A stretch of 64,000 nt of DNA from Bacteroidales bacterium (GTDB taxonomy: Bacteria > Bacteroidota > Bacteroidia > Bacteroidales > UBA932): assembly GCA_017469845.1 (NCBI GenBank), contig JAFUFP010000049.1, forward strand, positions 1 through 64,000. The letters are read 5' to 3'. Made by a program: the position numbers and the translations under genes. Each line of letters starts with the position of its first letter. Within the stretch, counting starts at the first letter, position 1. The notes under the pieces are model-generated. The model saw only the letters and a program-made list of their open reading frames with translations, made no database searches and had not been told where the DNA came from. Of the stretch, positions 7,898 through 46,161 are shown in pieces.

Positions 7898-7898
7898 G

Positions 7899-7971
7899 TG
7901 GAGCATAGGAGAATCGAACTCCTGACCTTTTGAATGCCATTCAAACGCTCTACCAACTGAGCTAATACCCC
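7899..7971 (-). tRNA. tRNA-Ala (anticodon GGC)
   Basis: Read on the minus strand, 73 nt fold as a complete tRNA: acceptor 5' GGGGTAT pairs with 3' ATGCTCC (two G-U pairs), discriminator A, D-arm with AGCTCAGTTGGTAGAGC, anticodon stem TTTGA/TCAAA with loop ATGGCAT, and T-arm with GTTCGATTC. Loop positions 34-36 are GGC, so it reads the Ala codons GCC/GCU. CCA is not encoded. A TATATTTG -7 element lies just upstream. Confidence 0.95.
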
Positions 7972-36416: not shown

Positions 36417-38432
36417 TTACTTTGCCGCATTCGCCTCAAGTCCCGACTGGAGGAACTGCACGAATCCGTCCACGTCAAGGTTGTAGCCCCTTATCGGGAC
36501 GAGCTGCTCACCTTCGGGTGAAAGGAGTGCGTAGTTGGGCTGTGCGTTCACACCGAAGCGGGTCCTCACGATGTAGGAATTGACCCTTCCGAAGTCCTTC
36601 AGCACTTTCCCGTTCTCGGTCGTGACCCATTCGTTTTCATTGAGCTTCGACTTGTCGTCGGTATATAGGGCCACGATCACGTAGTCGTTACGGAGTATTT
36701 CAAGGACCCTCGGATCACTCCAGACCCTCTGCTCCATTTCGCGGCAGTTGACGCAGCCGTGCCCCGTGATGTCGACGAAGATGGGTTTTCCCTGCTGCTT
36801 CGCCGCTTCCATACCTTCTTCCAGGGTGAAGTATCCCGAAAGACCGAGGGGAAGTTCCAGGCCGAACCTTTCCGCAGTACTGCTCTTCGCCTGGGCGGCT
36901 GAGCCGGATGATACGGCCAAAGGGCCGTCAGCGTGGTTGTACACCACAAAATCCTGCGTCTGTATCGGAGGAAGATATCCGGAGAGGGCTTTGAGAGGGG
37001 CTCCCCACATTCCGGGGATGAGGTACACGACGAAAGTGAAGACCGCAATGACGAGGGTGAGGCGGAAGACCGAGAGGGGCTTTTCCTCGGGGTCGTCGTT
37101 CTTGAAACGGATCTTTCCGAGAAGGTACAGTCCCAGGAGCGAGAATGTGACTATCCAGATGGCGAGGTAGATCTCCCTGTCGAGAAGTCCCCAGTGGTAG
37201 GTCTGGTCAGCGGTGGAGAGGAACTTGAATCCCAGCGCAACCTCTATGAATCCGAGCACCACCTTGACGGAGTTGAGCCAGCTTCCGCTCTTGAGTTTCT
37301 TAAGGAGCGAAGGGAACATCGCGAAGATGGTGAAGGGGAGTGCGAATGCCACGGAGAACGCGAGCATCGTTATCATCGGTGTCCAGAATTCTCCCTGGGT
37401 GGACTTGATGAGGACCGAACCAACGATGGGACCCGTGCAGGAGAACGACACCAGAACGAGGGTCAGAGCCATGAAGAAGATTCCGGCGAGACCGGCCTTG
37501 TCGGACTTGGCGTCACTCTTGTTCACAAGCGAAGAGGGGAGTGTGATCTCGAACGCTCCGAAGAAGGAGGCGGCGAATACCATGAACACGATGAAGAATA
37601 TGATGTTCGGCAGCCAGTGCGTCGCAAGCCAGTTGAAGATGTCGGCCGTGACGGCGTCTCCTCCAAGGATCCTCGTCAGGAGAATGATTATCGAAATCGG
37701 CACCGTGTAGAGGAGCACTATGAAGAGCCCGTACATGAACGCCTTGAACCTTCCGGCGGCGGGAGTTGAAGAACCCTTCATGAAGAAGGATATCGTCATG
37801 GGCACCATCGGGAATACGCAGGGGGTAAGCAACATCGCGAAGCCCCACAGAATAGCCTCTATGATGAGGCCCCAAAGGGAATTGGAAGAATCTGAACCCT
37901 CGGTGGGATCTTCTATGATTGTCGAGTGTGAATCCTCCGCAAGTGCCTTTTTGTCAGCGCGTGAAACTTTTTTGTTTTGGTCGCTAACATTTTTGTTAGG
38001 CTTGCCGTTTACCTCGAGACTGAACTCATAGTCGGTGGGAGGGGTGCAGAAACTGTCCGAGCAAGCGATCCAGGATACCATTCCTTTGACGGAAGGATTC
38101 TTCGCGGTGAGGCGGATCTTCTGGCCCAGTTTGATCTCTCCGAAGAAGACCTTGTCTCCGTCGAGTTCCTGGCTCTGCGACAGCTCGTAGGGCTCGCCCT
38201 CGAGGGTGTATCCGACGGGGGAGTCGAACTCCAAGGTGGTTGCGGAATATTTGTTCGTCAGGTCATAGGTGTGCAGTCCGTCAGCGATCTTGCCGGTAAG
38301 CACCACCTCGTAAAGGTCTCCTTCGACCTGACGGGTTTCCGTCCTCCACTTTATGGTCTCTTCCGGAGCCTGCGCGAAAATGCTCGTGAAGGCGAAGACG
38401 AGGACCGACGCTATTGAAAGTATGCGTTTCAT
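36417..38432 (-). CDS. dsbD: Thiol:disulfide interchange protein DsbD
   Basis: A 671-residue protein: signal peptide (to about 20), periplasmic N-terminal DsbD-alpha-like domain (to about 135), eight-helix CcdA-like core (about 185-480; LTPCVFPMVPMTISFFMKG carries one redox Cys and FSCTGPIVGSVL the other) and a C-terminal thioredoxin domain with HGCVNCREME (Cys560/Cys563). It passes electrons from cytoplasmic thioredoxin to periplasmic thiol proteins. All three modules and their cysteines are present. The linker at about 140-180 is charged and probably flexible. Confidence 0.94.
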   Translation of the reverse strand: MKRILSIASVLVFAFTSIFAQAPEETIKWRTETRQVEGDLYEVVLTGKIADGLHTYDLTNKYSATTLEFDSPVGYTLEGEPYELSQSQELDGDKVFFGEIKLGQKIRLTAKNPSVKGMVSWIACSDSFCTPPTDYEFSLEVNGKPNKNVSDQNKKVSRADKKALAEDSHSTIIEDPTEGSDSSNSLWGLIIEAILWGFAMLLTPCVFPMVPMTISFFMKGSSTPAAGRFKAFMYGLFIVLLYTVPISIIILLTRILGGDAVTADIFNWLATHWLPNIIFFIVFMVFAASFFGAFEITLPSSLVNKSDAKSDKAGLAGIFFMALTLVLVSFSCTGPIVGSVLIKSTQGEFWTPMITMLAFSVAFALPFTIFAMFPSLLKKLKSGSWLNSVKVVLGFIEVALGFKFLSTADQTYHWGLLDREIYLAIWIVTFSLLGLYLLGKIRFKNDDPEEKPLSVFRLTLVIAVFTFVVYLIPGMWGAPLKALSGYLPPIQTQDFVVYNHADGPLAVSSGSAAQAKSSTAERFGLELPLGLSGYFTLEEGMEAAKQQGKPIFVDITGHGCVNCREMEQRVWSDPRVLEILRNDYVIVALYTDDKSKLNENEWVTTENGKVLKDFGRVNSYIVRTRFGVNAQPNYALLSPEGEQLVPIRGYNLDVDGFVQFLQSGLEANAAK

Positions 38433-38526: not shown

Positions 38527-40068
38527 TTATTTCGCGTAGGCGACGGAACGGGTCTCCCGGATGACGGTTATCTTGACCTGTCCGGGGTAAGTCATCTCGT
38601 TCTGGATCTTCATCGCTATGTCTGAAGAGAGGGCTGCGGCCTGCTGGTCGGAGACTTCCTCCGCACCGACGATGACCCTGAGTTCCCTTCCGGCCTGGAT
38701 GGCGTAGCTCTTGGTGACTCCGGGGTAGGAGGCTGCGAGGTCTTCCATACCCTTGAGACGTTTGATGTATGACTCGATGACTTCACGTCTCGCACCGGGC
38801 CTTGCGCCTGAGATGGCGTCTCCGACCATCACGATGGGGGAGATGATGGATGTCATCTCCATCTCCTCGTGGTGAGCTCCGATTGCGTTGCAGATCTCGG
38901 GACGCTCCTTGTACTGCTCTGCAAGCTTCATTCCGAGGATAGCGTGAGGAAGTTCAGGCTCTTCTTCGGAAACCTTTCCGATATCGTGGAGAAGTCCGGC
39001 CCTCTTCGCGATCTTGGGATTGAGACCGAGTTCGGAAGCCATGATGGCGCAGATGTTCGCAACCTCACGTGAGTGCTGCAGAAGGTTCTGTCCGTACGAA
39101 GAACGGTATTTCATTCGACCTATGAGGCGGACAAGTTCGATGTTCATTCCGTGGATTCCCAGGTCGATGCAGGTCCTCTTTCCGGTTTCGAGGATCTCGT
39201 CCTCGAGCTGCTTCTGGACCTTGGCCACGACCTCCTCGATCCTTGCGGGGTGGATCCTTCCGTCGGTCACGAGCTGGTGGAGTGAAAGCCTTGCGACCTC
39301 CCTTCTTACCGGATCGAATGCGGAAAGGAGGATTGCGTCGGGAGTGTCGTCCACGACGATTTCAACACCGGTGGCTGCCTCGAGGGCACGGATGTTTCGT
39401 CCTTCACGGCCGATGATCCTTCCCTTTATCTCATCGTTCTCGATGGGGAAGGTGGTGACGGCGTTCTCGATGGCGGTTTCGGTGGCTGTCCTCTGGATGG
39501 TGTTGATCACGATCCTCTTGGCTTCCCTGGCCGCATTGAGCCTGGCCTCGTCCATTGTGTCGTTGATATAGGCCTGAGCCTCGGTGCGGGCTTCAGCCTT
39601 CATGTTCTCGACGAGAACGGCTTTGGCCTCCGCAGCGGTCATTCCGGCTATGGATTCGATCTGCCTGTTGGCTTCGGCCATCAGACGGTCGTATTCCTCG
39701 GCCTTCTTTGTAAGGTTGTCCCTCTGCTGGTTGAGGCTGTTCTTGGCGTTCTCGGCGTCGCGGAGTTTCTTCTGGAGTTCGTTGTTCTGCTGTCCGAGGT
39801 TGTTCTCCTTCTGTTTGATGCGGTTTTCGGCATCCTTTATCGCGCTGTTCTTCTCGTTGACCCATTTCTCGTGGTCGGACTTGAGCTGGAGGTATTTCTC
39901 CTTGGCCTGGAGAATCTTCTCCTTCTTGATGTTCTCGCCCTCGAGTTCGGCCTTCTCGATGATCTCGTCGCGACGTCCTTTGAGGATTATCCTGCGGACT
40001 ATGAGGAAAGCGCCCAGGGCGATTATGGCCCCGATGACAGCGCCGATCAGTAATGATAGAAAGTCCAT
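38527..40068 (-). CDS. rny: Ribonuclease Y
   Basis: A 513-residue membrane-anchored endoribonuclease. An N-terminal helix ([19 protein letters not shown]) is followed by a long coiled coil (about 28-200), a KH domain ([20 protein letters not shown]) and an HD domain with [10 protein letters not shown] and a downstream GAHHEE. It starts mRNA decay at the inner membrane. Full length, no anomalies. The upstream intergenic region holds the probable 6S RNA, and zapA lies beyond it on the same strand. Confidence 0.96.
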
Positions 40069-40151
40069 GTCTTTACATGAATTTTAAGATGTATATATTG
40101 AGTGTTTGTGTTCCACGTCTTCGGGAATCGGTCCGCTCATCAAACGATGAA

Positions 40152-40187
40152 ACGGTGGCCTTCCCCTTTTCGGGAAACAGCCACCGT
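40152..40187 (-). terminator. Stem-loop between the structured RNA and rny
   Basis: ACGGTGG (40152-40158) and CCACCGT (40181-40187) with an inner CCTTCCCC/GGGAAA pairing make a long hairpin in the rny leader. There is no strong U-tract, so it may be a leader structure rather than a terminator. Confidence 0.5.
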
Positions 40188-40223
40188 CAGTGGAATATAG
40201 GCCCAAGGCCTGATCATAGAAGG

Positions 40224-40408
40224 AAAAAGCCGCCCGGTCGCAGGTCAGAAAAGTCTCTGATACAGGATTTGGGCTCCGTGCCGTTTCAGTAATCCGGTGT
40301 TCCGCAATAGCGGAATCCCCTCCGAGAGGGTACTCCGGCCCGCCCTCCACGGCTCAAGTTCACCCGGTTCCGAAGAACGTGTTGTTTTCAGCCCAGGTAC
40401 CGGCGGCT
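40224..40408 (-). ncRNA. ssrS: Structured RNA, probable 6S RNA
   Basis: On the minus strand AGCCGCCGGT (40408-40399) at the 5' end pairs with ACCGGGCGGCT (40238-40228) at the 3' end (one bulge), and the 3' arm runs into UUUUU, as in an intrinsic terminator. The closed molecule is about 185 nt, the usual 6S RNA length. Inside, GGGCU/AGCCC and CCGUG/CACGG form further long-range stems, with local hairpins GUUC-UUCG-GAAC, CCCUC/GAGGG and UUCCGC-UAUU-GCGGAA. It lies 9 nt after the zapA stop, and zapA-ssrS adjacency is known in other bacteria. The region has no plausible protein. The 6S name is inference from size, closing stem and neighbour; a clear central bubble was not traced. Confidence 0.6.
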
Positions 40409-40416
40409 ATTTTCCG

Positions 40417-40698
40417 TCAATTATTGTCAAGATAAGAATCAGTCTCTTCCTGTAGGGCCTTCAGGTCATTCTGCAGGGCTTCCAACTTCCTCTGCAGGTT
40501 GAGGCTGCCGATTGTCTCGTTGAGGGCGACGAAGGACATGATGTCGACCATGTTCTTTCCGGGGTATTTCGCCAAATATCCCGAAAGTCTTCTGTTGATC
40601 GCATTCGCGGCCTGACGGATCAACTCCTCCTGCTCCGCGTCTGCGGCATTGAAGGCATAATCCCTTTCCGCTATGCGAACTGTGATCTTTTGTGCCAT
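40417..40698 (-). CDS. zapA: Cell division protein ZapA
   Basis: A 93-residue protein with the ZapA fold: N-terminal beta-strands with KITVRIAERDYAFNAADAEQ, then a long helical coiled-coil tail. The motif AANAINRRLSGY is near residue 30. ZapA cross-links FtsZ filaments at the division ring. The gene starts 3 bp after the stop of the ZapB-like coiled-coil gene, so the two form an operon; the structured RNA follows 9 nt downstream. Confidence 0.92.
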   Translation of the reverse strand: MAQKITVRIAERDYAFNAADAEQEELIRQAANAINRRLSGYLAKYPGKNMVDIMSFVALNETIGSLNLQRKLEALQNDLKALQEETDSYLDNN

Positions 40699-40701
40699 GT
40701 C

Positions 40702-40974
40702 CTATTTCTCAAGAAGGGAAATGCACTTGTCGATTTCCCTTATCAACTTATCAATCTTCTCCTTCGCCGCCGACTTGTCGGGGGAAGAACCGGTAAAGGC
40801 TTCAGTAAGTTTCAGATTCTCGACTTGTCTTTCCAATTCGGTAATCCGTTTCCCATAGACCTCATTGAGGGCCTGAAGGCGCTTCACTTCCTCCTCGAGG
40901 GCGATGCGCTCCGAGCGCTCGCTTTCGTATCGGGCAATGAGCCTTTCTATGCTTTTTTTGATTCCTTCCAGCAT
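40702..40974 (-). CDS. ZapB-like coiled-coil protein
   Basis: A 90-residue, almost entirely helical protein with heptad-like Leu/Ile/Val spacing (IALEEEVKRLQALNEVYGKR, then ITELERQVENLKL) interrupted by a short Gly-Ser turn (FTGSSPDKS). It resembles ZapB-type division coiled coils in length, composition and position just upstream of zapA. No enzyme motif. Function is inferred from the operon. Confidence 0.75.
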   Translation of the reverse strand: MLEGIKKSIERLIARYESERSERIALEEEVKRLQALNEVYGKRITELERQVENLKLTEAFTGSSPDKSAAKEKIDKLIREIDKCISLLEK

Positions 40975-41032: not shown

Positions 41033-41183
41033 GAAGTTTTTTGTCCTTGTCGGAAGCAGCGCATCAAAATCCCGCTCAGAAGCATTTCAGTACGATTCGT
41101 TCTTCTCCGGAATGCGAACGGCACGATTTTGGGAATGAATGCTTTCGGGCGATATGCCCTTTTGCCCACAAAAATCAACTACG

Positions 41184-41705
41184 ATGAAAAAACTGCTCAT
41201 AATGATTCTGACTGCGATGCTCGCTTTCGCCGCATTGCCCAGCTTCGCACAGTCTTCAAATAATGCCGCAAAGGACTCCGGAGTGGCTTCTCTCCTTACC
41301 AGGAACCGCGAAATGAAGGGACTGAGGATGAAGTCCCTTGGCGGAGTGTGGATAAAGATGCTCGGCCGTCTTGCGGGCGCCGGTAGCGAAGATCCGAACG
41401 TCGAAAGGATACTTTCCGGTGTCGGTGGAATAAACCGCATCCTGGTTGTGGACTTCGCCGACTGCTCCGAATCCGACCGCAAGGAGTTCATCTCCGAATT
41501 GGAAGCTCTCATATCCAAGTCGGAGAAGATGTTCGAAGGAAAGGACAGGGGTGACACTCTCGGAATTTACGGCATTCCCGATTCGGGAGAAGGCAAGGTT
41601 CGTGACCTTATCGTAAGGCAGAGGGGAGGCAAGACGGTGGTTTTCGCCATCGGAAGCGCGACTTCCGCCATACTTTCTGAAATTCTTTCGGCTGATACGG
41701 TATAG
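41184..41705 (+). CDS. DUF4252-like exported protein (first of tandem pair)
   Basis: A 173-residue protein with a type I signal peptide (MKKLLIMILTAMLAFAALPS, then FAQ). The mature part fits DUF4252: RMKSLGGVWIKMLGR, then INRILVVDFADCSESDRKEF and ALISKSEKMFE. DUF4252 genes often sit with ECF sigma factor genes in Bacteroidota; here the nearest sigma gene is about 6 kb away. The frame is open upstream to 41139, but the ATG at 41184 opens the signal peptide. The second gene of the pair starts 10 bp after this stop. Confidence 0.8.
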   Translation: MKKLLIMILTAMLAFAALPSFAQSSNNAAKDSGVASLLTRNREMKGLRMKSLGGVWIKMLGRLAGAGSEDPNVERILSGVGGINRILVVDFADCSESDRKEFISELEALISKSEKMFEGKDRGDTLGIYGIPDSGEGKVRDLIVRQRGGKTVVFAIGSATSAILSEILSADTV

Positions 41706-41715
41706 AAGTTTTGAA

Positions 41716-42231
41716 ATGAAAAGATCCATTCTATTGGCGGCTGCGCTTGCCGCACTTTTCTTCATCCCTTCACTGAGGGCAGCTGCCCAGGACTCTGACA
41801 AGGAGGTTTCCGCATTGGTCGAGCGGTGGGGAAATGTTCCCGGAATGAGGGTTTCCACTCTGGGAAAGAGTCTTGTGCCCCTTATGCAGGGGATGTCGTC
41901 GTTTCTTGCCGAACTTACCGGAGAGAATCAGGAGGTTCCCGATGTGTCCGGTGCCGACAGGATAATCATCATGGATTATTCCGGAATGGAAGACGGGATT
42001 GCGGGAGAATTCTCTTCGGCGCTTACTTCCCTTCTTTCCAAGGGGAAGATGATTCTGGGAACAGGAGACGGTGACCGGAGGACAGGAGTATGGTCCTTCA
42101 AAAAGGACGGTGAGGGGGACGGCTCAGTCATTGTCCATTATCCCGATATGCGGCGTGTGCTTGTCTTTGTGGGAGATTCCGAGTACGAAGACAAGGAAAG
42201 TGCCGTTGACGACCCGGACAGGCTGTTCTAG
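41716..42231 (+). CDS. DUF4252-like exported protein (second of tandem pair)
   Basis: A 171-residue exported protein with signal peptide (residues 1-24, ending LRAAAQ). It shares the layout of the upstream gene: GMRVSTLGKSLVPLMQGM aligns with RMKSLGGVWIKMLGR, and ADRIIIMDYSGMEDGIAGEF with the RILVVDFADCSESDRKEF segment. They look like products of a tandem duplication that have diverged. Probably periplasmic; role unknown. The tail is acidic (EYEDKESAVDDPD). Confidence 0.8.
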   Translation: MKRSILLAAALAALFFIPSLRAAAQDSDKEVSALVERWGNVPGMRVSTLGKSLVPLMQGMSSFLAELTGENQEVPDVSGADRIIIMDYSGMEDGIAGEFSSALTSLLSKGKMILGTGDGDRRTGVWSFKKDGEGDGSVIVHYPDMRRVLVFVGDSEYEDKESAVDDPDRLF

Positions 42232-42321: not shown

Positions 42322-45300
42322 CTACTTGGTCACATAGCCGCTCTTGAGGCTGACGGTTATCCTGGATCCGTCGGAAGCGAAGTCATATCCACCGCTCTGC
42401 AGACGGAATACCATAACGTCGATGCCGTTCCTCTTCGCGGTTCCGCGGTAGGTGACACCTGCGCAGGTCTTTACCTTCCTTGCCGCCTGGAGGGAGAATT
42501 TTCCGCTGACGGGGAGATAAAGGGTGGCGGAGGTGTTGGCCGGAACAGTGGCGCTGTAGGTGGAAAGGGCGCTCACTCCATGGGAGTCGACGCTCTTCGG
42601 ATCCGCTGTCCATGCGCTCTCGATAAGACCGTTGGAGGACTTGTAGGCCACCTTCGCGTGGTCGAGAGAACCTCCGGGAACGGGCTGGAGTACGAAGTCG
42701 GAGAATCCGACCGCATCGTAGATTCCGTTGTCACCCCTCTGGATTCCGCCGACGCTTGTTATCATGAAAGCGGCAGCCACTCCGAATCCGTAGTGGTTCC
42801 ATGAGTTCATCGACTGGTTGATGGGACCGTACTCGGTCTCGGTGTTCCACCTTTCCCAGAGGGAAGTGGCGCCGAGGGTGACGGGATACAGCCATGAGGA
42901 GTACTTCTCGTTTTCGAGCATCTTGTAGGCCGCTCCGAACTCTCCGTTCTTTCCGAGGGCTCCGAGGATACAGGGAGTTCCGGTGAAACCGGAAGTGACG
43001 CTCCATTCATGCAGAGGCATGTCAACTCCGTTCACTGCGGCCGTGAGTTCGGTTCCTTCGAACTGGCACCTCTCGAGGTAGTTCTTCACGAAATTCGGAT
43101 GCTTCGCGTAGTCGATCATGTCGTAGTAGATCGCGATTGCGTATGAGGACTGTGCGGTCGTGGGATTGCCGTTGTAATCCAGAGGAATGTCAAGGTCGCT
43201 GATCATATTGTCGTTGAACTCTTCCTTCAGTTTGAGGAAGTAGTCGCGGTAGTATGCCGCCTCGTCCTTCTTTCCGAGGGCGTCGGCCATCGTGGCCATG
43301 TACATGAGGGTTCGGCCGAACTCGCAGATCTGGTCGTATCCGGAGTTGGAACTCTTCGACATCTCAAGATGGTTGGAAAGTCCGCCTCCCTGGAAGAGGT
43401 AGTTGTACTTGGGATCCTGCTTTCCGGCGTTGATGAACTGCTGGGTGTACATGACGAACGAATCCCAGCTTTCCCTGAGGGCTGAAAGGTCACCGTTGTT
43501 TGCGTAGATGTCCCAGATCATCGTGAGACCTCCCATAGGCCATGCCACGTTGGTGGCCTTGCCGTCGGGATTCTGCGGCACACCTTCCTTGGTGTAGTAT
43601 CTGCCTCGTCCGGTCATCGAAGCCTGGTAGTCACGTGATGCCGAATTCAGCTGCACATCCCTTCCTAGCTGGGCGTAGTTGCTGTAGAACTGGGTCATGT
43701 CAGCCATGTAGACGGATGTCTCGCTGTAGATCTGCTGGTCTCCGAGGAAGGGGAGACGCTCGTTCCTCTGGGGGCAGTCTGTTCCGACGGAGACGTGGTT
43801 TCCGTAGTGGGAACGCGCCACATTGAGGAAGAAACGGTCCAGAAGGGGATTCGAGGACTCGAAGGTGGTGGTGATGTCCGTGAGTGAAGAAAGCACCAGT
43901 CCGTCAACCTGGACTCCGGCGAGCAGCGCCTGCTGCTGGGCCTTGGAGAGATTGCCGTTGATGCTGATGTCGATGTAACGCCATCCGTGGAAGGTGAGGG
44001 AAGGGGTGAATGTCTCGCCCGCACCGCCTTTGGCGATGTAGCGGTCGATCGACCTCGCTCCACGGTAGTTCTCGGTGTAGATCATTCCGTCCATCTGGGC
44101 AGAGTTGAAAGGATAGAGGAAATCCCTCTTCACCCTTGTCTCTCCGTAACGGAGAACGACTTCCGTACCTTCGGGGAGGGGAGTGCGGAACTTCACTCTC
44201 GGAACTCCGACCATGTTCTCACCCATGTCAAAGATGTAGGAGATGTGTTCCGGATTGTCCCTGAACTTGAGCGAAGGGGTGTGGATATGCTTTCCGGGAA
44301 GCACCTGGACAACGTGGATCGGGTAGTCTATCCTTCCTTCGTAGTCGGGATTCTCGCTGCCCTGGTCAGCCGCGGGAGTGAATGCGGCCTTCTTCCATGC
44401 GGAGTCGTCGTAAGATGCGGTGGACCATCCTTCGATGGCTTTTTCCTTCCTGGCGTCATAGAATTCACCGTGATAGAGGCTGCTGTAGGTGATGGGACCT
44501 CCGAGGAATGACTTCCAATCCTTGTCGTTGGTCACGATTTCCTGGACTGAACCGTCTTCGTAGGTGATGACGAGTTTCGCCATGACACCCCATCTCTCGC
44601 CGTACCAGTTCCAGTAGGTGGGGCTGTAGACGTATTCGTCACCCCACCATCCGGGACCCATGACAGCGCCCATGGCGTTGTCTCCGTTCGAGATGATTCC
44701 GGAAGTCACATCGTAGGTGACATACCTCATCGTTCCGTAGAACTGGAGCATACCGGGGGAGAGGAAGTCCCTTGAGTGGGCGGTGCCGTCATTTTCCTTG
44801 GAGTAGACTCTTCCGGCTTCTACCCTTTTACCGTTGAGGAAGAATTCGTTCACACCCCTGGAGGTGACATAGAGTTTCGCGTCGGCAACCTTGCCGGTAG
44901 TGCGGAACTTGGTCCTGACCATGGGCTCGGATCCGAACGAAGGGTCGGCGTAGGCCACGGTCGCGGTCGCCTTGATGGTGCCGCCGTTCACCTCGACTCC
45001 GGGAAGGTCCTTGAAGATGGCATAGGTCGCTCCGATGTTCTCACCGAATACGGTCGAGGCCGGTTTGTTTATGTAGTTGACCTTGATTCCGCTGAATTCC
45101 GCGGTTCCCTTTACGCTGAATCCGATCTGGCCGAGGTGGGGATACTTGCATGAGTCTCCGCCCCTTCCGAGGGGATTGGTGAAGAGCTGCGGCTGGGCGT
45201 TGCCCCTACCGAATCCTGCGGGTGCGGCTGCGGCCTGACCACCGAACGGGTTGGCGGCGGGGGCGTCGGGTTTCTGGAAAGCGACTCCGTCAAGGGTGCA

Positions 45301-46161
45301 GTTGATGAGGTTTCCGCCGGTGCAGCTGAGGTACACCGTATGGGTGTCGTACATGTTTTCGACGGTGATGTTCTCGAGGTCGTATGCCTTCAGAAGGGAG
45401 GTGTTGTCGGGCCTTTCGCAGTCGATCGGGCTGTATCCCTTGCGATAGATCTTGATCTGGGCGGGACCCCTGCCTTGGACGAGTTTCGAGATGTCGTAGA
45501 CGACGTTGATGTAGTTCTCTCCTTCGATCAGGTAGTCATTGTACATGGCGTTGGAGAAGCGCATCTCGTTCGCGGCGTAGATGAAACCTCCTTCGGTCGT
45601 ACCCTTTTCGAGTCTTATGTTGTATGTGATGTTGTACACCGTAAGTGATGCGGCGTCGAGGGTGACGTCGGGGCTTCCGATGAACATGGCTTCACGACCG
45701 AAAACGGCGTCCTTGACGTTGTCGAAGTCGGCAGTGTTGTATGTGCACAGTTCGTATGCGAGTCCCGTTGAAAATCTCGCCTCCGGTGAGGTGTGGGCCT
45801 TGCCCTTCTTGTCCCAAACGGTGACGTTCCAGAAGTAGTCTGTTCCGTTTTTGAGATTCCGGGCCTTGGAGTAATCGAGTTCGACATTCGAAGAGCGTGA
45901 AGAAGGAACTTTGCCCGTATCCCATACGGGATTTCCGGCCTTGTCCTTTATCACTATCCGATAGGCGCTCTGGCCTTCTCCCACTATGTTGGATTCGATG
46001 TCCCATCCGAAGACGGGGACTTCATCGAGTCCCAGCGGGGTGACCATGTTGTCGGTGAGGGGGTTGGTGACATTGAAATACCCTTGGGCTTTCGCTCCCG
46101 GGGCACCGATGAGAACCATTCCCACTACAGAAGATAGGAAGTAGAGGAATTTTTTCGTCAT
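42322..46161 (-). CDS. GH78 alpha-L-rhamnosidase
   Basis: A 1279-residue exported glycoside hydrolase: signal peptide (about 1-25), N-terminal fibronectin-like domain (about 30-130), an extra beta-rich insertion (about 140-380) with a disordered Gly/Ala/Pro/Asn loop (GGQAAAAPAGFGRGNAQPQ), a rhamnosidase N-terminal domain (about 385-560; FFLNGKRVEAGRV), a concanavalin-like domain, the (alpha/alpha)6 catalytic barrel and a C-terminal beta domain. The catalytic motif is DCPQRNERLPFLGD: acid Glu801 and Asp808 are conserved, with Asn where many members have Asp. The predicted base is Glu1103 in LWERWN. It removes terminal alpha-L-rhamnose; the only CAZyme in this locus. Confidence 0.93.
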   Translation of the reverse strand: MTKKFLYFLSSVVGMVLIGAPGAKAQGYFNVTNPLTDNMVTPLGLDEVPVFGWDIESNIVGEGQSAYRIVIKDKAGNPVWDTGKVPSSRSSNVELDYSKARNLKNGTDYFWNVTVWDKKGKAHTSPEARFSTGLAYELCTYNTADFDNVKDAVFGREAMFIGSPDVTLDAASLTVYNITYNIRLEKGTTEGGFIYAANEMRFSNAMYNDYLIEGENYINVVYDISKLVQGRGPAQIKIYRKGYSPIDCERPDNTSLLKAYDLENITVENMYDTHTVYLSCTGGNLINCTLDGVAFQKPDAPAANPFGGQAAAAPAGFGRGNAQPQLFTNPLGRGGDSCKYPHLGQIGFSVKGTAEFSGIKVNYINKPASTVFGENIGATYAIFKDLPGVEVNGGTIKATATVAYADPSFGSEPMVRTKFRTTGKVADAKLYVTSRGVNEFFLNGKRVEAGRVYSKENDGTAHSRDFLSPGMLQFYGTMRYVTYDVTSGIISNGDNAMGAVMGPGWWGDEYVYSPTYWNWYGERWGVMAKLVITYEDGSVQEIVTNDKDWKSFLGGPITYSSLYHGEFYDARKEKAIEGWSTASYDDSAWKKAAFTPAADQGSENPDYEGRIDYPIHVVQVLPGKHIHTPSLKFRDNPEHISYIFDMGENMVGVPRVKFRTPLPEGTEVVLRYGETRVKRDFLYPFNSAQMDGMIYTENYRGARSIDRYIAKGGAGETFTPSLTFHGWRYIDISINGNLSKAQQQALLAGVQVDGLVLSSLTDITTTFESSNPLLDRFFLNVARSHYGNHVSVGTDCPQRNERLPFLGDQQIYSETSVYMADMTQFYSNYAQLGRDVQLNSASRDYQASMTGRGRYYTKEGVPQNPDGKATNVAWPMGGLTMIWDIYANNGDLSALRESWDSFVMYTQQFINAGKQDPKYNYLFQGGGLSNHLEMSKSSNSGYDQICEFGRTLMYMATMADALGKKDEAAYYRDYFLKLKEEFNDNMISDLDIPLDYNGNPTTAQSSYAIAIYYDMIDYAKHPNFVKNYLERCQFEGTELTAAVNGVDMPLHEWSVTSGFTGTPCILGALGKNGEFGAAYKMLENEKYSSWLYPVTLGATSLWERWNTETEYGPINQSMNSWNHYGFGVAAAFMITSVGGIQRGDNGIYDAVGFSDFVLQPVPGGSLDHAKVAYKSSNGLIESAWTADPKSVDSHGVSALSTYSATVPANTSATLYLPVSGKFSLQAARKVKTCAGVTYRGTAKRNGIDVMVFRLQSGGYDFASDGSRITVSLKSGYVTK

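Follow-up and report, generated by a model that had tools for sequence, protein, structure and literature searches.

A very probable divergent 6S RNA between zapA and rny in a Bacteroidales bacterium

What does the intergenic stretch between zapA and rny encode in this Bacteroidales genome? On the minus strand of the window (the whole 64,000-nt stretch of DNA analysed here), a zapB-like gene, zapA, the stretch in question, rny and a DsbD-like gene follow one another (Table 1). The original prediction, made from the letters alone, placed here a probable 6S RNA of about 185 nt, starting 9 nt past the zapA stop in a region where no protein can be read. The start is borne out on the minus strand, with the RNA running from 40408 to about 40222, and so is the lack of a readable protein at 40224-40408: the two ORFs that overlap it, 88 and 79 aa long, yield nothing in Pfam at E≤0.1, and the 88-aa frame is interrupted by a stop in the near relative L008, so that a coding reading of the stretch was judged unlikely. 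Covariation, a match to RF01693 and a conserved linkage to zapA support the RNA assignment, and minus-strand positions 40222-40408 are very probably a divergent 6S RNA of this bacterium.

Table 1. Features of the zapA-rny region in the window, with the basis of each assignment.
Feature	Positions	Strand	Basis
DsbD-like gene	36417..38432	minus	Pfam DsbD membrane domain above cut-off
rny (RNase Y)	38527..40068	minus	Pfam RNase_Y_N, HD and KH_1 above cut-off
Terminator-like hairpin ACGGUGGC...GCCACCGU, 3' of RNA	40152..40187	minus	Inverted repeat; poor U tract
6S RNA gene (very probable)	40222..40408	minus	RF01693 and R1 matches; mature RNA about 185 nt, putative ends
U-run at end of closing stem	40224..40228	minus	Sequence; conserved in A2
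Closing stem P1, 3' arm GGCGGCU	40228..40234	minus	Inverted repeat, covariation
Helix P2, 3' arm UUUUC	40248..40252	minus	Strand-swap test
Central bubble 3' strand, AAAUC...GACUUUU	40248..40270	minus	Sequence strongly conserved; local hairpin possible
Interrupted terminal stem	40271..40365	minus	Covariation in A2
Small hairpin GUUC-UUCG-GAAC, central bubble 5' strand	40367..40378	minus	Columns 74-78% paired
Helix P2, 5' arm GAAAA	40385..40389	minus	Strand-swap test across clades; weak in window's genus
Closing stem P1, 5' arm AGCCGCC	40402..40408	minus	Inverted repeat, covariation
zapA	40417..40698	minus	Pfam ZapA 44 bits, cut-off 23.8
zapB-like coiled-coil gene	40702..40974	minus	Pfam ZapB 22.2 bits, below cut-off 31.5

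At its curated cut-offs, Rfam reported only a tRNA in the window and nothing at the RNA locus. A permissive search of positions 40060-40420 gave two matches up to E 10, both to 6S families. The best was to RF01693 (Bacteroidales-1, annotated "6S-Bacteroidales RNA suggested"), the 6S family of the Bacteroidales, at 40222-40408 on the minus strand; it spans model positions 1-179 of 179, that is, the full length, and scores 47.2 bits (E 7.7e-7), below the curated cut-off of 60. The sole other match, likewise on the minus strand, was to RF01685 (6S-Flavo), also a Bacteroidota 6S family, with 19 bits (E 4.2) against a cut-off of 85. The covariance-model search proposed with the original prediction thus led to a 6S family, and no better match to another RNA family, the outcome named as refuting, emerged. 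RF00013 (6S) had no match at E≤10 in the whole genome. The window's genus behaves alike: RF01693 is found at E≤1 in 24 of 41 genomes and over its cut-off in none, and RF01685 is found at E≤0.001 in none of the 37 genus genomes drawn. By the cut-offs of RF01693 (0/41) and RF01685 (0/37), this genus would therefore be scored as lacking 6S RNA though the RNA is present.

Covariation in related genomes had been named beforehand as a test of the prediction. A first alignment of 21 Rfam-trimmed matches (A1) gave a weak consensus fold (-2.44 kcal/mol, 16 pairs), a weakness that probably came in part from four rows lacking their 5' ends, and was replaced. For its successor, A2, the RNA was extracted by sequence anchors from 120 loci, 100 of which carried both (7 had no 3' anchor and 13 no 5' anchor). 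Removal of those more than 92% alike left 68 loci, and exclusion of L116 (cut short) and L076 (overlong) left the 66 sequences of A2, among them seven (L109, L113, L114, L119, L121, L123 and L125) from genomes without an RF01693 match at E≤1.

The result in these 66 relatives is clearly positive. A 38-pair structure leaves 87.4% of cells paired compared with 78.1% in shuffles, with 264 both-side changes against 89.4, and pairs showing a both-side change number 23 against 18.5 (reached by 2 of 500 shuffles). Its covariation score of 0.306 compares with 0.157 after shuffling (0/500 as high) and with at most 0.092 for versions slid along the alignment, the latter advantage being favoured by the partial derivation of the structure from A2 itself. 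The interrupted terminal stem is backed by compensatory change: columns 62 and 164 hold 37 G-C, 27 A-U and 2 G-U pairs with none broken, and columns 91 and 136 show all four Watson-Crick types (19, 16, 15 and 11 cases, with 3 unpaired and 2 gapped). The closing stem P1 is 95.8% paired across the 66 relatives, with both-side changes in five of nine pairs. Where an end stem of 10 bp had been claimed, we find seven continuous pairs and, by eye, two more past a bulged G, a stem of nearly that length; the U-run is present as described and kept in A2. Closing stem, central bubble and terminal stem are thus backed by covariation, and the two bubble hairpins only partly so: the small 5' hairpin shows some compensatory change, and the 3' bubble hairpin keeps its two outer A-U pairs with poorly supported inner ones (68.5% of cells). 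Core positions of bubble and stem are almost invariant throughout the 66 sequences.

Fold energy was rejected as evidence. The minus strand folds to -72.4 kcal/mol, which 9 of 200 shuffles match (z -1.99), and the plus strand about equally well (z -2.50), the two being comparable against shuffles. The closed structure of about 185 nt is real, and it is covariation and the covariance-model matches, not energy, that lift it above chance.

The relation of this RNA to the described families was then approached from the opposite direction, with a covariance model (R1) built from A2 alone. On the window, whose RNA is a training sequence, R1 scores 153.8 bits at 40221-40412 and finds nothing else up to E 10. 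The assembly holds one copy of a dedicated 6S RNA gene: R1 has one match in the genome at 8.8e-41 and the next at E 1.76 (150 of the 727 first-look candidates were scored). Outside A2, R1 matched all 62 test loci in the position expected, with E values between 3.4e-17 and 0.0074, though partially in the case of L154, which lies at a contig end. Of these, 30 had been found with RF01693 (29 above its cut-off), all of which R1 recovers, and 32 with RF01685 (12 above its cut-off). For a negative control, R1 was run on 25 rny loci (112,583 bases) whose genomes carry the RNA elsewhere; its single match (E 0.49) lay beyond rny. In 148 Bacteroidales genomes, at E≤0.001, R1 finds 56 and RF01693 39; both find 31, R1 alone 25, RF01693 alone 8 and neither 84. 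Since weak matches are lost to the strict filters of both searches, the 84 match-free genomes cannot be called 6S-free.

The homology of the window RNA to both described Bacteroidota 6S families follows from these computations, and the genus bridges two families that are catalogued separately. With RF01693 the RNA shares its core, the order of its elements and the full-length match, the structure of the RF01693 model leaving the closing stem and helix P2 (described below) unpaired. The 6S-Flavo copies occupy the same genomic place, and R1 finds all 30 of their phylum-level loci; they have a shorter terminal stem and a stronger P2.

Gene order offers a second line of evidence. The order zapA-RNA-rny recurs in the genus, in other Bacteroidales and in 6S-Flavo-matching genomes. 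Many of the named relatives, which are recorded as MAGs of Bacteroidales or Bacteroidia, come from rumen or faeces; one of them (L042) is Candidatus Cryptobacteroides faecihippi. Among 25 RF01693-matching places in the genus, zapA adjoins 23 and rny too in 20 (L021 and L024 lie at contig ends and L011 has zapA only). The remaining two, L025 and L027, have neither gene beside them and look like chance matches. Further loci were collected through rny itself: the top 80 of 408 candidates on named contigs, and 20 places in 18 of 20 genomes (17 without an RF01693 match, 3 with a weak one). Over all 127 loci collected by then, in sets which overlap (L008 and L028, for example) and are not independent genomes, rny is present in 122 and zapA lies upstream in 110, with a gap of 170-453 nt.

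Beyond the genus, rny adjoins the RNA in 30 of 30 phylum-level RF01685 loci and zapA in 29 of 30; these genomes belong to the same class and another order, presumably Flavobacteria. In L001 the order is zapB-like ORF, zapA, RNA, rny. The order-level search kept 30 R1 loci, of which 14 have rny adjoining (L188-L190, L199, L201, L203, L205, L206, L208, L210, L213, L215, L216 and L217), and in eight of these tblastn shows zapA as well; neither gene adjoins the RNA in the remaining 16. The 30 RF01693 loci L128-L157 likewise have neither neighbour (0/30), the RNA lying elsewhere, and upstream of rny in 25 of those genomes (L218-L242) R1 finds no match (25/25). In the eight relocated-RNA genomes inspected, zapB-like and zapA-like ORFs still precede rny, with a zapA-rny gap of about 47-127 nt, and the three zapA-like ORFs tested are ZapA by Pfam. 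The RNA either left a persisting zapBA-rny order or never joined it; since the linked order is widely spread, leaving is favoured.

How is the RNA made? Promoters of Bacteroidetes carry TAnnTTTG at -7 (PMC7366714). As the original prediction held, no promoter of its own was found: the perfect box is absent from the 60 nt upstream of the RNA, and the best candidate in the window has two mismatches. A sigma-70 promoter scan, which returned one plus-strand site, was unhelpful for the strand of the RNA and for this phylum. Across relatives, the perfect box within 60 nt distinguishes the two arrangements. Of the 29 relocated copies counted (without L154), 24 have it where shuffles would give 1.3, as against none of the 68 genus copies (0.4 expected), none of the 13 linked copies of the order search, one of them from the same genus (0.4 expected), and one of the 30 phylum-level linked copies (0.7 expected), a contrast that covers 60 nt only, in the genus mostly zapA coding sequence. 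The 41 genus genomes drawn all fall below the RF01693 cut-off, and the window RNA lies between zapA and rny with no near -7 box, whereas the RF01693 loci lie away from that place (30/30) with a box in 24 of 29. In the relocated copies the distance from box to modelled 5' end varies from 13 to 56 nt instead of being a fixed -7, so that these RNAs would start upstream of that end.

Downstream of the RNA, a strict scan found terminator-like hairpins before rny in 29 of 66 loci and in 1 of 66 shuffled ones (one shuffle each; the set differs slightly from A2, as it takes in L076 and L116). The hairpin of the window, with its poor U tract, fails the scan. Upstream, the RNA abuts zapA: in several relatives (e.g. 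L003, L009, L012 and L048) the zapA stop codon, by eye, overlaps the first base of the RNA. Because the 5' end abuts the zapA stop, no box is near and a terminator-like hairpin is frequent downstream, we consider it fairly likely that the RNA is processed from the zapBA transcript, of which it would perhaps be the last cistron (zapB-zapA-6S). The earlier suggestion of cutting from a zapA transcript thereby gains indirect support: linked copies generally have no box within 60 nt where most relocated ones do, and the downstream hairpin is frequent.

Alternatively, the 6S RNA might have a promoter to itself within zapA and not be processed from the longer transcript. E. coli 6S RNA has own promoters, 7 of 68 genus loci and 6 of 13 order-search linked loci carry a one-mismatch box in the 60 nt before the RNA, and the comparison reaches 60 nt only. 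We regard this as unlikely, given that the perfect box is absent from all 68 genus and 13 linked loci against 24 of 29 relocated ones, and that the conserved stretch upstream of the RNA reads, by eye, as the C-terminus of zapA.

A separate motif was seen in the phylum-level linked loci (L158-L187), where a GTTCWTT element, which we take to resemble boxA of rRNA leaders, precedes the 6S RNA in 26 of 30, at 21-27 nt from the modelled start. The same element occurs in 1.8% of random 60-nt windows of these loci, in 2 of 29 relocated copies and in none of the 68 genus copies. A similar GTTCATT lies upstream of 16S rRNA, at varying distances, in three of five phylum-level genomes.

Turning to function, the 5' and 3' strands immediately interior to the closing stem can pair to form P2, as with UUGGUAAACUC and GAGUUUACACAA in L156. 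An attempt to evaluate this helix on the model-fitted alignment A3 was abandoned, as gaps split the helix, and strand swapping was used instead, on 63 sequences (13 from the genus and 1 from a sister genus, 13 other linked Bacteroidales, 20 relocated and 16 phylum-level; the antisense match of L017 was dropped). The mean duplex energy is -8.32 kcal/mol, compared with -6.39 when strands are swapped among all sequences and -7.39 when swapped within clades, and none of 5000 swaps of either kind was as low. P2 is weak in the window's genus (mean -5.0 versus -4.5 kcal/mol swapped within the group). With closing stem and P2, the modelled RNA has the usual 6S plan of interrupted closing stem, bubble and terminal stem.

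The bubble of a 6S RNA mimics melted promoter DNA and binds RNA polymerase with its primary sigma factor as growth slows; the RNA is released as the polymerase uses the 5' bubble strand as template for a short pRNA. By analogy, we infer polymerase binding and pRNA synthesis for the window RNA as well: its bubble would mimic melted promoter DNA and hold RNA polymerase with the primary sigma factor at slow growth, and the RNA would be freed by synthesis of a short pRNA that begins in the 5' bubble strand and proceeds outward into P2. The putative template lies just 3' of the P2 5' arm, and the predicted pRNA would start in the CAACA stretch (40380-40384), run into P2 and read GUUGUUUUCAGCCC or a shorter form. 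Within the phylum, 6S RNA with two pRNA classes has been described by dRNA-seq in B. thetaiotaomicron (PMC7366714), and 6S RNA has been detected in F. psychrophilum (PMC9723704).

The fold might instead have been kept in the window's clade with a changed partner or function, as its divergence (all 41 genomes miss the RF01693 cut-off) and its weaker P2 could suggest; the near-invariant core in 66 relatives would hardly be expected had the partner changed, and we consider such a change very improbable. A cis-acting leader or attenuator that controls the RNase Y gene at the transcriptional or translational level, with no free 6S RNA, is likewise very improbable: the location between zapA and rny would suit it, and Weinberg et al. 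list cis-regulation by Bacteroidales-1 with a '?', yet the RNA is missing upstream of rny in all 25 relocated-RNA loci examined with R1, none of the 30 RF01693 loci has zapA or rny adjoining, and terminator-like hairpins separate RNA from rny in 29 of 66 loci.

A 6S RNA in this setting recalls the Proteobacteria. The E. coli 6S structure consists of closing stem, bubble and terminal stem, all of which the window RNA has in common with the proteobacterial family (RF00013, E. coli ssrS). There, too, the gene lies directly downstream of zapA: the order in E. coli K-12 is zapA, ssrS, fau, with fau in the place that rny takes here. The likeness to the zapA-ssrS linkage noted in the original prediction is therefore real, and conserved over the genus, the phylum-level loci and E. 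coli. Since R1 has no match to ssrS and RF00013 finds nothing in the window's genome, kinship with proteobacterial 6S RNA rests on general architecture and synteny. A zapB-zapA-ssrS array has been described for beta- and gamma-proteobacteria (PMC7641849). Our literature search, little of it aimed at zapA, yielded no paper that we recognised on a zapA-6S linkage in Bacteroidota, and we make no claim of priority for the synteny.

These observations can be drawn together in a joint reading, which we put forward tentatively and, taken as a whole, as somewhat less likely than not. In it, zapB-zapA-6S would be an ancient unit that predates the split of Bacteroidota and Proteobacteria; Bacteroidota 6S RNA would by default be cut from the transcript of Z-ring genes; some Bacteroidales (presumably the Bacteroides lineage) would have moved the RNA out and added a sigma-ABfr promoter; and RF01685 and RF01693 would be one family split only by divergence. 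If true, the supply of a polymerase silencer would be tied to cell-division genes. The gene order of the window's genus looks like the older one, and the genus thereby makes testable both a 6S RNA as part of a cell-division transcript and the gain of promoters by relocated copies.

Elsewhere in the window, a DUF4252-like small protein, below the Pfam cut-off, is encoded at 41139-41705, next to an ORF at 41716-42231 with no Pfam match at E≤0.1. A large alpha-L-rhamnosidase with five Pfam domains above cut-off lies at 42322-46161, and a tRNA-Ala (GGC) at 7898-7971 on the minus strand.
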